DNA from: Agathobacter sp.
GTDB lineage: Bacteria; Bacillota; Clostridia; Lachnospirales; Lachnospiraceae
Direction: 5' to 3'
Length of the DNA: 64,000 nucleotides
Assembly: GCA_017409825.1 (NCBI GenBank)
Contig: JAFQRZ010000008.1
Coordinates: 1-64,000, forward strand
Each line of letters opens with the position of its first letter. Within the stretch, counting starts at the first letter, position 1. This document shows, in pieces, positions 769-46,750 of this stretch. The notes under the pieces are model-generated. The model had not been told where the DNA came from and made no database searches. It saw only the letters and a program-made list of their open reading frames with translations. The position numbers were made by a program, and so were the translations under genes.

Positions 769-823
769 AAAAGGACTATAATGGGATGCTTTATATCAAT
801 ACAGCAACCATTATAGTCCTTTT
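769..823. terminator. Bidirectional terminator with conserved 23-nt loop (copy 1)
   Basis: A 16-bp perfect stem (769-784 with 808-823) encloses a 23-nt loop at 785-807. A T run follows on the plus strand and a weaker one on the minus strand. It lies between the convergent DtxR-type gene and the EAL gene. The loop, read on the plus strand, closely matches the loops at 44380-44402 (minus) and 45785-45807 (plus), while the stems are unrelated. Confidence 0.85.
785..807 (+). repeat. Conserved loop repeat, copy 1
   Basis: Pattern GAnGCnTTAT, three variable bases, A, one variable base, TACAGCnA. It shares 16 of 23 invariant positions with copies 2 and 3. Five of the seven variable positions (6, 11, 12, 15, 22) are transitions; position 3 is T against A and position 13 differs in all three. 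Confidence 0.75.
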
Positions 824-840
824 TATATACTAATTTATTT

Positions 841-2511
841 CTATTTACAGAATGTTTCTATAAATTCTTCCTCTGGGCAAGGTCTTCCATAGAAGAATCC
901 CTGAATATAATCTGGTCCAAGAGCTCGAATGTAGTTTAACTCTTCTTCTGTCTCTACACCTTCTACACAGATTTTTAATCCCAAACTATGCACCAATTTA
1001 ATGATGCTTTCCATCAATGTCTTTTCAAAATCATTTTTTAATGCTTTAACCGTAAATCCACGATCCAGCTTTACGACATTTGGATTCATATCACTGATAT
1101 TCATCAAATTCGAATATCCTGTTCCAAAATCATCCAATGCAATCGTCACACCAAACTGACGTAGATTATTCCAAACCTTTTGAATCTGCATAGAATCATC
1201 CAGCTCGCCACTTTCGGTCAATTCAATCGTAATGCTCGACGGAGACATTCCATAATCCTTCATCATTTTGAAAAACTCCACGATAAATGGACTCTTTAAT
1301 ACCTGCACATAAGAAACATTGACATTTACACTAAAGTTAGGCAAAACCTCCTGTACTCGCTGGCAGAAGGTCATCGCTTTCTTTAATACCCATTTCCCAA
1401 CTGGAATAATCAAACCACTCTCTTCTAATAATGGAATAAATTCCATTGGAGAAATACGTTCTCCATTTGGCAAGGTATAACGTAGTAATGCCTCTGCTGC
1501 ATAAGGTTTTTCATCATTGCTATCCCTTACTATCGGCTGGAAGAACACTTCAAAGCCTTCATAATCAGACGAAATACTTTCTCGAATCGTGCTGATTACC
1601 AGACGACTTCTTAAAAAGTGCTCATAATCATCTTCTTCAAAGAAGTACACCTGATTCTTGCCGAGCTTCTTCGCCTGAGAAAGTGCAAACTGTGACAATT
1701 TAATCAATTCCTCAAATTCCATACCACTTAATTTCTTGCAAGAAAGCACACCGCCAGAAATGGTAAATACGGTCTGATAGCGATTCTTTTCAATAAATAC
1801 ATCTACATTATTACGCACACGATTATATAAATCTTTTCCATCGGCCTCGTCATCGGTCAAGTATGATATGATTAAAAACTCGTCTGCTGATACGTGATAA
1901 ACTTCTTCTCCGATATTCAGTGCGTCCGAAATACATTCTGCTACAGATTTTAAAATAAAGTTCCCATATTCATGTCCAAAACGCTCATTAATCGATTTAA
2001 AATCATCAATACCAAGATGTAGAATATACCCACTATTGGCAACACGGCTGAAGGTCGCAATGGTTTCTGCCACAGCTGAAACCTCTCGAAGTCCACTGAT
2101 ATTGTCTGCCTTCTGGTTTTTGCCGATTTCATTGACACATCCCATCATATACTTCGGCTTATCATTCTCATCTTTAATGACACGGCCACGACAGTTTATC
2201 CAGATTGGATTTCCATCCTTTCCCAACCAGCGATATTCAATGTTATGCTCGTCCTTTTCGCCAGAAACCATCTTTTCCAAATCGGCAACCAGCATATCCA
2301 CATCTTCTTCATAAACAAACTGTCTATGCATTTCTGTCACATCAGTAAAACGATTCGTTGGAATGGCAAATCGTTCCAATGCTTTTTCTGAAATATAATA
2401 CAAATCCTGTGTAATGTCATAGAAATACAGATAATCATCCATACATGGTGCAAATCCATCAATCACATGACAAAATTCTTCAAATTTATATTGTACCGCT
2501 TTATCTCTCAT
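841..2511 (-). CDS. PAS-GGDEF-EAL cyclic di-GMP phosphodiesterase
   Basis: 556 residues: a PAS-3-like sensor (about 20-130), a degenerate GGDEF domain (about 135-300; signature SADEF at 208-212, so diguanylate cyclase activity is unlikely) and an EAL domain (about 315-550). The EAL domain keeps the residues needed for hydrolysis: E340-A-L, N398-x-S400, E430 in ELTE, D460-D461 in DDFGTGYS, K481 and E517. It should cleave c-di-GMP to pGpG in the cytoplasm, with the PAS domain as input. No membrane segment. It is the last gene of a leftward unit after the GH2 gene (14-bp gap) and ddh, and is followed by the conserved-loop terminator. Confidence 0.9.
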   Translation of the reverse strand: MRDKAVQYKFEEFCHVIDGFAPCMDDYLYFYDITQDLYYISEKALERFAIPTNRFTDVTEMHRQFVYEEDVDMLVADLEKMVSGEKDEHNIEYRWLGKDGNPIWINCRGRVIKDENDKPKYMMGCVNEIGKNQKADNISGLREVSAVAETIATFSRVANSGYILHLGIDDFKSINERFGHEYGNFILKSVAECISDALNIGEEVYHVSADEFLIISYLTDDEADGKDLYNRVRNNVDVFIEKNRYQTVFTISGGVLSCKKLSGMEFEELIKLSQFALSQAKKLGKNQVYFFEEDDYEHFLRSRLVISTIRESISSDYEGFEVFFQPIVRDSNDEKPYAAEALLRYTLPNGERISPMEFIPLLEESGLIIPVGKWVLKKAMTFCQRVQEVLPNFSVNVNVSYVQVLKSPFIVEFFKMMKDYGMSPSSITIELTESGELDDSMQIQKVWNNLRQFGVTIALDDFGTGYSNLMNISDMNPNVVKLDRGFTVKALKNDFEKTLMESIIKLVHSLGLKICVEGVETEEELNYIRALGPDYIQGFFYGRPCPEEEFIETFCK

Positions 2512-17196: not shown

Positions 17197-17235
17197 GTTT
17201 GTCAAGATGAAATAATTTGAATGCATAAATACTAC

Positions 17236-17321
17236 GAAAAATGGAGTATGTCCCTATATAAAATCTGGACACGACGGGCCGCTAATGGTCCAATTTCATA
17301 TAGGGACATACTCCATTTTTC
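17236..17321 (-). terminator. Long-stem terminator with structured loop
   Basis: A perfect 24-bp stem (17236-17259 with 17298-17321) encloses 38 nt in which AAATcTGGAC can pair with GGTCCAATTT, extending the helix. T-rich sequence follows on the minus strand, so it ends the hemolysin III-like transcript. Its loop is not the conserved 23-nt loop found at three other sites. Confidence 0.8.
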
Positions 17322-17356
17322 CTATCTTTTCTATATATTTTACTTATTTCATCTTG

Positions 17357-29135: not shown

Positions 29136-29227
29136 ATATCATGCTCCTTAATAAAAAATCTATTTTATAATAGCATGCACCAAACTTCTTTTCTCTATGT
29201 AAATCTTGGAAATTTACAAAATAATAA

Positions 29228-29279
29228 GAGCCATAGCAACTGCCTAGGACACTGTGATATGCCTATTTTGCTATGGCTC
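29228..29279 (-). terminator. Hairpin terminator after the TrpXYZ-type operon
   Basis: GAGCCATAGCAA (29228-29239) pairs with TTGCTATGGCTC (29268-29279) around a 28-nt loop containing CACTGTG. A T-rich but interrupted tract (TTATTATTTT) follows on the minus strand. Confidence 0.75.
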
Positions 29280-29291
29280 ATATAGTACGCT

Positions 29292-43747: not shown

Positions 43748-44356
43748 ATGAACAACACATCAAATTCCGATATGAAAAAAGCCATCCTCAGTCTACTTGA
43801 TAAATTGAATGGCATCGATTATATCAATCCCGAATCTATTCCAAACATTGATTTATACATGGATCAGATTACAAGCTTTATGGATGACCAGTTAGAAATG
43901 TCCAAGCGTCGTGAAGACGACAAATTGTTAACCAAAACTATGATTAACAATTATACCAAAAATGACCTTCTTCCTCCACCTGTAAAGAAAAAATATTCCA
44001 AAGAACATTTGCTCTGCTTAATTTTCATTTACTATTTGAAAAATATTTTGAGCATTAGTGATATTCACAACGTATTAAATCCAATTACCGACAAATATTT
44101 CGGTAATAAAGAAGGCTTCAACATGGAAGATATCTATAAAGAAATCTTCGATATGGAAAAAGAAGAGTCTACCAAGGTATTAAAAGAGTTTACCAAGAAA
44201 TACCAGATTGCTCGAGGAACCTTCAAGGATTATCCCGAAGAAGACCAGGAGCTGTTACAGACCTTCAGTTTCATTTGCTTACTCAGCTTTGATATTTATA
44301 TCAAAAAACAAATGATTGAAAAAATGATAGATGACGTATTAGGTACTGAATCATAA
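43748..44356 (+). CDS. DUF1836 protein
   Basis: 202 residues. The central part (about 33-140) is the DUF1836 domain: IPNIDLYMDQITSFMDDQL, LLTKTMINNYTKNDLLPPPVKKKYSKEHLLCLIFIYYLKNILSISDIHNVL. The TMINNYTK segment and following helices suggest a MerR-like winged helix, so a DNA-binding role is plausible but unproven. AGAGGTGA precedes the ATG. Monocistronic and convergent with the TrpR-like gene; the conserved-loop terminator copy 2 lies between. Confidence 0.9.
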   Translation: MNNTSNSDMKKAILSLLDKLNGIDYINPESIPNIDLYMDQITSFMDDQLEMSKRREDDKLLTKTMINNYTKNDLLPPPVKKKYSKEHLLCLIFIYYLKNILSISDIHNVLNPITDKYFGNKEGFNMEDIYKEIFDMEKEESTKVLKEFTKKYQIARGTFKDYPEEDQELLQTFSFICLLSFDIYIKKQMIEKMIDDVLGTES

Positions 44357-44360
44357 AAGC

Positions 44361-44421
44361 ATCCCCACATATAAAATTATCGCTGTATTCGCATAAGGCT
44401 TCTAATTTTATATGTGGGGAT
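44361..44421. terminator. Bidirectional terminator with conserved 23-nt loop (copy 2)
   Basis: A perfect 19-bp stem (44361-44379 with 44403-44421) encloses the 23-nt loop at 44380-44402. T-rich sequence follows on both strands. It separates the convergent DUF1836 and TrpR-like genes. The conserved loop reads on the minus strand. Confidence 0.88.
44380..44402 (-). repeat. Conserved loop repeat, copy 2
   Basis: On the minus strand GAAGCCTTAT, then GCGAA, then TACAGCGA. It differs from copy 3 at only two of 23 positions and from copy 1 at six. Confidence 0.8.
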
Positions 44422-44448
44422 CTATTTTATACTTACTTAATACTTCTA

Positions 44449-44754
44449 TCATTTATCTTGTAGGTCCGTAGGACAAATTCTCTTTAATACCATATCCAGG
44501 CCTTCGTTCCCATAATTTAGCGAACGATTAACACGACTAATCGTTGCAGTAGAAGCCCCAGTTTCTTTTGCAATATCTAGATATGTCCGCTCTTCACGAA
44601 GCATTTTCGCTACTTCTACACGCTGTGCAATTGCTGACAATTCTTTAATTGTACACACGTCTTCAAAGAATTTGTAGCACTCCTCCTTATTCTCCAACGA
44701 CAATACCGCATCAAAAAAACGATTTACCGTTGCAGAATGTAACCCCTTTTCCAT
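44449..44754 (-). CDS. TrpR-like transcriptional regulator (YerC/YecD family)
   Basis: 101 residues. TrpR/YerC fold: FFEDVCTIKELSAIAQRVEVAKMLREERTYLDIAKETGASTATISRVNRSL, with the helix-turn-helix in YLDIAKETGASTATISRV. YerC-family members in Firmicutes are TrpR-like, with an unclear effector. A GAAGAGGAAGAGG run precedes the ATG at 44754. Its promoter (44787-44815) is back to back with that of the CPBP protease gene, so it could regulate both. Confidence 0.9.
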   Translation of the reverse strand: MEKGLHSATVNRFFDAVLSLENKEECYKFFEDVCTIKELSAIAQRVEVAKMLREERTYLDIAKETGASTATISRVNRSLNYGNEGLDMVLKRICPTDLQDK

Positions 44755-44885: not shown

Positions 44886-45722
44886 ATGAAAAAAATAAAG
44901 ACACTTCTTTTTTCATCCGTACCTTTTTTCCTTGCAATCGGAATTCAATTTATAGCGGTATACTATCTTTTATTTATCGCTTCTGTTTTCCTATTTGGTA
45001 TTGCACCAGCGATTCAGGGGAAGGTGTACAATGAGCAGGACTTACTCGTTCTCGCCTCAGATATGAATTTCAACACGATTGCAAGCATTATCTTCTCGGT
45101 AGCTTGCATTACTGTTTTCGCTATTTGGTATTACAAAAGCTGTGGCGGCAATTTCAAAATTAATCTCAAAAAAGACTTTCATCCTTATGAAATCCTTGGG
45201 CTTATCCTTTTAGTGCCAGGTTCTCAGTTTATGAGCAGCATTGTTACCAGTATGATTTCTCTGGTATTCCCAAGCTGGCTGGAATACTACATGGAGCTTA
45301 TTGAAAGTGCAGGTCTCTCTGGTGAAGTGCCGCTGCTTATGATGATTTACTCGGTTTGTCTGGCACCAATTGGCGAAGAACTCATTTTCCGAGGCGTAAC
45401 CTACCGCATTGCTCGAAGAGTATTTCCATTTTGGATTGCAAATATCATTCAAGCACTCCTCTTTGGAATTTTCCACATGAATCCACTTCAGGGCTGTTAT
45501 ACCTTTATCCTTGGACTTTTCATGGGATATATATGTGAAAAAGGCGGCTCACTCTATCATGCGATTTTCTTCCATTTCTTATTTAATTTGTGGGGAACTA
45601 CCGCATCACAATGGCTGACACTCACAAGTCCTGCAATCCAAGGACTCATGATTGTTGTTGGAACCATAGTCGGGCTTAGCAGCGGATTTTATTTTTTCCA
45701 CAAGGGAAATAGAGCAAAGTAA
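44886..45722 (+). CDS. CPBP-family intramembrane metalloprotease
   Basis: 278 residues, about eight membrane helices. CPBP (Abi) motifs: motif 1 EELIFRG with Glu164, Glu165 and Arg169, motif 2 FGIFHMN with His197, motif 3 HAIFFHFLFN (His near 229 and 233). These make a Rce1-like intramembrane glutamate protease site. In Firmicutes such proteins process peptides or confer self-immunity to bacteriocins; no bacteriocin gene is visible here. GGGGAA precedes the start. Flanked by conserved-loop terminators on both sides of the divergent gene pair. Confidence 0.92.
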   Translation: MKKIKTLLFSSVPFFLAIGIQFIAVYYLLFIASVFLFGIAPAIQGKVYNEQDLLVLASDMNFNTIASIIFSVACITVFAIWYYKSCGGNFKINLKKDFHPYEILGLILLVPGSQFMSSIVTSMISLVFPSWLEYYMELIESAGLSGEVPLLMMIYSVCLAPIGEELIFRGVTYRIARRVFPFWIANIIQALLFGIFHMNPLQGCYTFILGLFMGYICEKGGSLYHAIFFHFLFNLWGTTASQWLTLTSPAIQGLMIVVGTIVGLSSGFYFFHKGNRAK

Positions 45723-45759
45723 CTATATAATGCAGTTTTAAGTTGCACCCAAAAACAAG

Positions 45760-45832
45760 AAAACTCCCTCTCCATATAAGTTTAGAAGCCTTATGCTAGT
45801 ACAGCGATAAACTTATATGGAGAGGGAGTTTT
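45760..45832. terminator. Bidirectional terminator with conserved 23-nt loop (copy 3)
   Basis: A perfect 25-bp stem (45760-45784 with 45808-45832) encloses the 23-nt loop at 45785-45807. It lies between the convergent CPBP and DUF368 genes. Confidence 0.9.
45785..45807 (+). repeat. Conserved loop repeat, copy 3
   Basis: GAAGCCTTAT, then GCTAG, then TACAGCGA on the plus strand; inverted relative to copy 2, 1.4 kb away. Confidence 0.8.
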
Positions 45833-45865
45833 CGTAGTATTTAGACAATCCTTAAAAAGTGCCTT

Positions 45866-46750
45866 TTATAGTTCTTCTGTCTTTTTACCGAACCAATAAG
45901 TAAACCATGTTCCTACTGCAAGAAGAACAATACCTACGATAATTGTTACTGCATTGATATTATTATGACCCATTTTGATTACAATTGCAATTGGAGACGC
46001 CACAATAAGACCGATAATTCCACAATATGTTATTGATGGGAATTTCTCAAACAACCATTCAATTAATTTTGCTACTGCAAAAATACCTACGATAAAACCA
46101 ACACCAAATGGAGCAAGGATTCCCACATAGTAGAAAATCTGAGCCCAGTCAAAGGCAAACACTGCAGAAATAAAGCCACTGATGGAAGACATAATGCCTT
46201 CATAAAAGCCTAAAATCATAAGTACTAATGAACCACTTACCCCCGGTACTACCATTGTTGCCGCAGATACTACTCCAACCAAGAAAATAGTAAGCATAAA
46301 TCCAACATTCAAGTCAAAATTTGCAAAAGATGTCTGTGTTTCATTCATAGCTGCCATACCAACTGCAAGTGCAAAGAAAAATGCAAAGGCAATGAGATGT
46401 GGAGCTGAAATACTCTTCCCTTCTTTGTGAAGGCTTTCTTTTGCAGGTTTCACAATGGCTGGTACACCACCCAAAATCAAACCGATAAAACAGAAGCTAG
46501 TTGGGAATGGATATACTTCCAGGCACCATGGAATGATAAAAGAGAATACTGCAACACCAAGCACCATTCCAATTCCAAGTGGTAATAATGTAATAATAGA
46601 TTTTTTAATATCCTTAAACAAATTATTTACTACACCAATGATTTTTTCATATACCCCCATGGAAACCATCATTGTTCCACCACTTACACCTGGGATGATA
46701 TTCGCTACACCGATTAACATACCTTTAATAATGTCAAATAAAAAATTCAT
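45866..46750 (-). CDS. DUF368 membrane protein (PopT-like undecaprenyl phosphate translocase)
   Basis: 294 residues with about eight to nine helices. DUF368 hallmarks: IIKGMLIGVANIIPGVSGGTMMVSMGVYE at the N terminus and the repeat-related VVSAATMVVPGVSGSLVLMILGFYEGIM in the middle. The two PGVSG loops mark an internal duplication. Proteins of this family (PopT) were shown in other bacteria to flip undecaprenyl phosphate back for cell-wall synthesis. AGGAGGA lies inside the end of hisC, which it overlaps by 17 bp, so it is translated from the hisC message. Confidence 0.9.
   Translation of the reverse strand: MNFLFDIIKGMLIGVANIIPGVSGGTMMVSMGVYEKIIGVVNNLFKDIKKSIITLLPLGIGMVLGVAVFSFIIPWCLEVYPFPTSFCFIGLILGGVPAIVKPAKESLHKEGKSISAPHLIAFAFFFALAVGMAAMNETQTSFANFDLNVGFMLTIFLVGVVSAATMVVPGVSGSLVLMILGFYEGIMSSISGFISAVFAFDWAQIFYYVGILAPFGVGFIVGIFAVAKLIEWLFEKFPSITYCGIIGLIVASPIAIVIKMGHNNINAVTIIVGIVLLAVGTWFTYWFGKKTEEL

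Follow-up and report, generated by a model that had tools for sequence, protein, structure and literature searches.

The window analysed here (a stretch of 64,000 nucleotides of an Agathobacter sp. genome, contig JAFQRZ010000008.1) contains three members of a family of hairpins that have structured heads and covarying stems, are located at the 3' ends of genes, carry different heads at orthologous sites and occur as near-identical copies at different loci. We read this family, with a probability of about 0.55, as a non-autonomous, dispersed hairpin element whose head is recognised, whose stem is kept perfect by template switching and which is used as a 3'-end hairpin. The first-pass annotation, made from the letters of the window, had described three hairpins with unrelated stems around a conserved 23-nucleotide (nt) loop and had proposed a constrained element; its interpretation is partly supported.

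All three window stems are perfect and every loop is 23 nt long. Copy 1 (769..823, + strand) consists of arms 769-784 and 808-823 (16 base pairs, bp) around a head at 785-807 and belongs to the short stem class described below. Copy 2 (44361..44421, - strand) has arms 44361-44379 and 44403-44421 (19 bp), and its head (44380-44402) is read on the - strand. Copy 3 (45759..45833, + strand) has arms 45759-45784 and 45808-45833 and its head at 45785-45807; this stem is 26 bp long, not 25 as first annotated, and the two other stem lengths stand. The loop sequences are GATGCTTTATATCAATACAGCAA in copy 1, GAAGCCTTATGCGAATACAGCGA in copy 2 (- strand) and GAAGCCTTATGCTAGTACAGCGA in copy 3; 16 of the 23 positions are common to all three and copies 2 and 3 differ at two, in agreement with the earlier description. 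The predicted RNA fold of copy 3 has an energy of -45.9 kcal/mol on the + strand and -43.7 kcal/mol on the - strand (z -12.3 and -9.2).

The loop pattern with up to three mismatches matched the window five times, against 0.58 matches expected, and the three mismatch-free matches are the three hairpins. The genome of the window (G000; 2.80 Mb in 36 contigs, with the window in contig 35) contained 35 matches with up to one mismatch and none to the reversed control pattern. A looser pattern with two mismatches gave 45 matches against 22 for its control, so the strict search alone is clean. A covariance model of the 23-nt loop and a 14-bp stem (R1), built from 47 of the 49 copies then known with two bulged ones omitted, matched window copies 1, 2 and 3 with E-values of 2.1e-11, 5.1e-15 and 4.7e-14 and detected 42 copies in G000 (39 without one duplicated region) and 21 in the sister species G007; all genomes were drafts, G007 is 71% complete, and covariance-model E-values are rough. 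The first-pass annotation had named a chance frequency of the loop and its absence from sister strains as outcomes that would speak against it; neither was found, the loop being far above chance and present in a sister species.

In the searches beyond these two genomes no 23-nt head within a stem was recovered. Applied to 60 further genomes of the genus (E <=0.01, under the stricter filters that come into use for sets of more than 40), R1 detected no copy. Among 84,980 species genomes scanned, with the window's own genome records possibly excluded, the loop pattern occurred outside the G007 metagenome-assembled genome in four places (L047, L050, L055, L058), all with stems of 0 or 1 bp, and these were taken as chance. 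Viral contigs gave one match to the loop pattern, without a matching stem in the sequence shown, and none to two patterns of the large head described below; plasmids and phages, searched with one wide head as query each, gave no match. The loop-in-stem arrangement with a 23-nt head was found in two species only, G000 and G007. A derivation of the loop from the TCGCTGTA terminator arm of genome G011 was considered and dropped, such palindromes occurring in 3 of 40 genomes and being apparently unrelated elsewhere. In genome G029, palindromes TCGCTGTA..TACAGCGA lie at or near contig ends in six places (L107, L109-L113) and are perhaps the ends of an unrelated repeat.

Two regions of about 9-10 kb in G000 (L144 and L145, one closing contig 31 and the other within contig 34) carry three short-class hairpins each and seem to be duplicated, as judged from a comparison of the hairpins and their near flanks. 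At another locus (L022, contig 15, about 113001), a truncated hairpin with the 5' arm of its G007 orthologue is followed by a complete hairpin with another stem. The three copies of L144, which are identical to those of L145, were removed, leaving 60 copies for the outer-arm, gene-overlap, strand-fold and location counts; the truncated L022 repeat was also left out.

The 23-nt loop forms a small structured head, folded into a helix in which G4C5 pairs with G20C21 and T8A9Y10 with R15T16A17 around a GNNA tetraloop. The Y10-R15 pair was T-A in 24, C-G in 20, T.G in four and C.A in one of 49 copies. Among 46 distinct sequences, 99.4% of 874 stem and head cells were standard pairs, compared with 71.9% in shuffles, and 217 cells showed a double change, compared with 57 in shuffles. 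Both sides changed in 13 of the 14 stem pairs and in 14 of the 19 pairs of stem and head together. The asymmetry of G.U vs. A.C in the 23-nt class was too weak as strand evidence and was not relied on. The arms differ between copies within both G000 and G007. That the stems are unrelated, as first described, holds for the three in the window; genome-wide, two weak stem classes can be recognised, a long one (GAA..CCCC..TTCATTTA), in which AGTAA precedes and GTAGTA follows the stem on the + strand, and a short one (AAAAGGAATATAATGG).

Comparison of 16 orthologous hairpins of G000 and G007, assigned by hand from common flanks and genes, revealed 48 stem pairs changed on both sides and five changed on one side, in a count with 14 broken cells, 12 of them from one bulged pair, and 36 unaligned bases. 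With the bulged pair omitted there were 45 double and four single changes; 24 of the 45 cannot pass via a G.U step, 19 can, and two involve a G.T pair. Gene-side flanks of the orthologues were 81-96% identical, and the orthologue of window copy 2 in G007 (L148) has a different stem. The excess of double over single changes is consistent with template switching within the hairpin that leaves the loop unchanged, and it supports the earlier suggestion that stems are rebuilt while the loop they enclose stays fixed.

The family is concentrated at the 3' ends of genes. The right-hand gene, in loop orientation, was convergent for 50 of 60 copies (40 of 48 in the long class and 10 of 12 in the short class), so that the head is antisense to the adjoining gene, and 34 of the 60 copies lay between convergent genes. 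This location and the covarying stems bear out the constrained element family that had been proposed. The median distance from stop codon to stem was 16.5 nt in the long class (-4 to 434) and 3 nt in the short class (-3 to 651), and the first 6 nt beyond long-class stems held a mean of 3.5 T on the gene strand vs. 2.3 on the other strand. Adjoining genes that matched above the curated cut-off were murA, aspS, rplT, a SecF domain gene, prfC and a class II aldolase gene; one of the four proteins in the family search that named murA, aspS and rplT had no match. Best matches below the cut-off, with some proteins cut by locus ends, were carB, purC, a GPH symporter, a beta-glucuronidase, TldD/PmbA and glnA. 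In the window, the gene adjoining copy 1 is at 841..2511 (- strand), that adjoining copy 2 is at 43748..44356 (+ strand; stop codon to stem, 4 nt), and that adjoining copy 3 is at 45866..46750 (- strand; 32 nt).

Many copies also have an outer inverted repeat beyond the stem. Its score exceeded the 99th percentile of 3,502 cross-pairs in 37 of 48 long-class and in none of 12 short-class copies, and in 27 of the 37 the gene-side outer arm extended at least 10 nt into the convergent gene. Copy 3 passes this threshold (score 29, p 0.005 vs. cross-pairs), its left outer arm (45704..45742, + strand) pairing imperfectly with a right outer arm (45851..45889, + strand) that extends into the 3' coding end of gene 45866-46750. 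Copy 2 falls narrowly below it (score 25, p 0.015); its outer arm at 44322..44345 (+ strand) lies within the 3' coding end of gene 43748-44356 and pairs with 44434..44454 (+ strand), the inverted counterpart of that gene end on the far side. At aspS, the hairpin is accompanied by an inverted copy of the gene end in both G000 and G007, and G011 has a plain terminator without the copied arm.

A conserved box adjoins the stem of copy 3 (45834..45845, + strand; GTAGTATTTAGA, reverse complement TCTAAATACTAC). The box pattern CTAAATACTACGAA, with up to one mismatch, had 29 matches in G000 vs. eight for the reversed control, and a perfect stem of at least 14 bp began at 28 of the 29; at the remaining one (L226, the same place as L196) it began a few bases further in. 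The interiors of the box-linked stems were the 23-nt head, a head of about 100 nt, loops of 5-11 nt, a 38-nt loop and a 495-nt interior. At the orthologous murA, carB and beta-glucuronidase sites, G007 has a head of about 100 nt with a three-way junction between the same boxes; one orthologous site in G007 has a tetraloop only, and others have ordinary terminators without the element. The proposal built on the 23-nt loop was too narrow in that this loop is not the defining part: the same architecture carries the ~100-nt head, tiny loops and others. The 495-nt interior (L215 around 1501; G000 contig 8, 119936-119949) is enclosed by a 34-bp stem (GAAAAGGGGCTGTTGCAAA..) that follows a box, and the whole looks like a miniature inverted-repeat transposable element (MITE) derived from an insertion sequence in a site of the same kind; the G007 SecDF site (L170) has GAAGGGGCTGTCGCAAA at that place. 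The window itself holds a related hairpin with a shortened ~100-nt head (CTGGACACGACGGGCCGCTAATGGTCCA; 17233..17324, + strand), which the model of that head did not report; a G007 locus (L195) with flanks similar to 17233-17324 has the full ~100-nt head. A further window hairpin (29224-29283; arms ATAAGAGCCATAGCAA and TTGCTATGGCTCATAT, 28 nt between them) has a loop that by eye resembles neither head.

The larger head is the widespread one, compared with the 23-nt head. A covariance model of it (R2), built from 28 of 29 unique large heads with one near-identical row omitted and searched within Lachnospiraceae, had matches (E <=0.001) in 71 of 299 genomes, several of which held at least 13 candidates. 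When 84 R2 matches over 69 loci were aligned, 94.6% of cells paired and both sides changed in 26 of 30 pairs, in an alignment that was fitted to the R2 model and so leans towards the structure. The flanking arms paired better than any cross-genome pairing in 72 of the 77 distinct elements with enough flank (median, 24 matched bases). In 300 sampled pairs from different genomes, heads were 63% identical and stem arms 48%, compared with 43% for random 25-mers. The strand antisense to the adjoining gene (+) folded lower in all 28 large heads compared (RNA, -46.8 vs. -40.5; DNA parameters, -29.5 vs. -25.1), and all 75 distinct aligned heads had a GNRA tetraloop on the + strand, read at the expected place +/-2 nt (GAAA 31, GAGA 22, GCAA 9, GGGA 8, GGAA 5). 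Of the loci fetched, all 11 from G132 and three of 13 from G101 had inverted pairs of heads 166-315 bp apart. In such paired wide heads (L284-L294, L266, L271, L273) each head has its own stem, and the G132 outer arms look common to loci.

Near-identical copies with different left flanks and common left boundaries occurred in two sets of three (A and B), and these argue for recent movement. Each copy consists of a conserved structured head at the tip, a stem of 15-30 bp that must pair while its sequence is only loosely constrained, conserved boxes where the stem begins and, frequently, outer arms. In the mechanism that we propose, the head would fold on one strand, antisense to the adjoining gene, and may be what a putative protein or RNA recognises. 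Template switching during replication, inside the hairpin, would renew one arm with the other as template and spare the unpaired head, and this would be why stems stay perfect. The same fold-back copying, continued past the stem, could place the gene's 3' end in inverted form on the opposite side, and copies may be retained as putative 3'-end hairpins, serving as terminators or in RNA-end protection, of the preceding gene. That such fold-back copying is also how the family spreads, as a class of mobile element in Lachnospiraceae whose head is moved to a gene 3' end and whose stem and outer arms are written locally, is an unlikely extension of this reading; if it were true, each copy would have made its own stem from its own surroundings.

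Several results weigh against the template-switching element as we read it. The folding strand of the 23-nt head was mixed: with the second arm built as the exact complement of the first, the + strand was lower in 41 and the - strand in 19 of 60 copies with RNA parameters, and in 22 and 34 with DNA parameters. Its tetraloop is mostly GNYA rather than GNRA. A consensus intrinsic-terminator scan did not report the hairpins, because its loop limit is 8 nt. The convergent bias is weaker in other genera (20 of 28 loci, from 29 wide-head family loci with L243 left out). Within genomes stems are more alike than between them, with identities of 0.71 in G101, 0.75 in G132, 0.88 in G136 and 0.94 in G287 (heads, 0.88, 0.87, 0.92 and 0.95), so stems are free at the genus scale and loose to nearly fixed within a genome. 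No outer arm exceeded the largest cross-pair score (96), which we put down to copies with overlapping flanks, and the outer arms of sets A and B, like those of G132, are common to different loci, not copied from the local gene. Across 13 orthologous pairs (751 columns), the gene-side arm differed at 94 positions and the far arm at 226, with 13 of the 94 gene-side differences mirrored in the far arm; the far arm thus looks like a copy that then drifts.

The evidence for movement is qualified in the same way. Two of the three set B copies share a right flank. Set A copies stop at contig ends, so complete insertion boundaries are unseen, and the set A right arm was not found in the assembly. Inspected by eye, set B showed no target-site duplication, and set A lacks right ends. 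The search for a partner enzyme, which covered one enzyme family, found no Y1 transposase (PF01797) in G000 or in the 71%-complete G007; the same search did match G027 and 5 of 14 control genomes. With the search aimed at that one enzyme family only, it yielded no recombinase, nuclease or partner RNA.

A family of regulatory RNAs without mobility is possible though rather unlikely; the head would then bind a protein or ligand as a module of antisense or 3'-UTR transcripts, and ordinary selection for pairing would make the stems covary. This explanation would account for the GNRA loop, the strong covariation and the better fold of the + strand in the large head, whose internal loop also appears, from the alignment read by eye, to contain tandem G.A pairs. 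It is at odds with the 48 double vs. five single changes in orthologous stems and with near-identical copies at different loci; moreover, only 15 of 28 wide-head family loci have a left-hand gene that transcribes the + strand, and the adjoining genes sampled are of mixed function.

We consider it improbable that the hairpins are ordinary intrinsic terminators whose loop is conserved through recent common descent only. Their place right after stop codons, the T-rich tract on the gene strand and the plain hairpin terminator that a sister without the element has at several sites all fit this explanation, but a large head that is folded, covarying and conserved across genera on stems that are near random (0.63 vs. 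0.48; random 0.43) does not. A single-stranded DNA hairpin substrate moved by an HUH-type transposase, as repetitive extragenic palindromes (REP) are by TnpA-REP, is very improbable: the folded head is strand-asymmetric, intergenic palindromic copies are many and GTAG adjoins the stem, but on the + strand GTAG lies at the 3' side of the hairpin instead of the 5' side, and PF01797 was not found in G000 or G007 in a search that matched control genomes. Chance resemblance of unrelated hairpins is refuted by the window and genome counts, the covariation, the R1 copies and the spread of R2.

The near-perfect pairing of the stems, the little sequence kept between genera and the many copies make the family a large natural data set on the making and repair of perfect hairpins in bacteria, and the conserved heads point to a putative factor that reads them. 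The 3' ends of housekeeping genes, aspS, murA and rplT among them, may be affected in gut bacteria.

Rfam returned no match for the window at gathering scores, and permissive searches, the last of them over 20 of 29 family loci, gave only sub-gathering matches at the elements, chiefly to long-hairpin models; FMN, TwoAYGGAY, SAM and tRNA matches above the gathering score lay elsewhere in the same loci. The skipping-rope and drum RNA motifs, considered as candidates, had no counterpart among the Rfam matches. In the literature, covered as open-licence full texts, no description of this element was found. Among the known systems with which it can be compared, integron attC sites are characterised by the IntI integrase and paired R and L boxes. 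The terminal repeats of MITEs are common to copies and usually flanked by direct repeats. Bacterial MITEs (RUP, BOX, SPRITE, QMITE2) likewise are small and repeated, with inverted arms that let their transcripts fold into stem-loops, and SPRITE is terminator-like (PMC10969869). The many short non-coding copies are found here too. In G000 and G007 the arms differ between copies, and they are shared or similar within sets A and B and in some other genomes; no duplication was seen by eye in set B. REP/RAYT systems share with this family dispersed short intergenic palindromes with a strand-specific folded form that are thought to be non-autonomous. REP differ in carrying GTAG on their 5' side, in conserving positions of the stem and in having a transposase partner of the Y1 type (PMC8266576); in this family it is the head that is fixed and the stem that is only loosely constrained, GTAG is not 5' and G000 and G007 have no Y1 transposase match. 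Intrinsic terminators likewise have a hairpin right after the stop codon, and their T-rich tract may have its counterpart in the T excess on the gene strand of the long class, but here the heads are 23 or about 100 nt, the larger one conserved across genera, on stems of about 25 bp. Template-switch hairpins, described for rRNA and microRNA genes, show multi-base compensatory changes with the loop retained (PMC8794818), and an excess of double, pair-keeping changes over single ones (48 vs. five) was seen here, in an element that is dispersed in bacterial genomes and inherits its head. The stem sequence is what usually serves to describe dispersed palindromes of bacteria, whereas in this family the tip is conserved and the stem changes.
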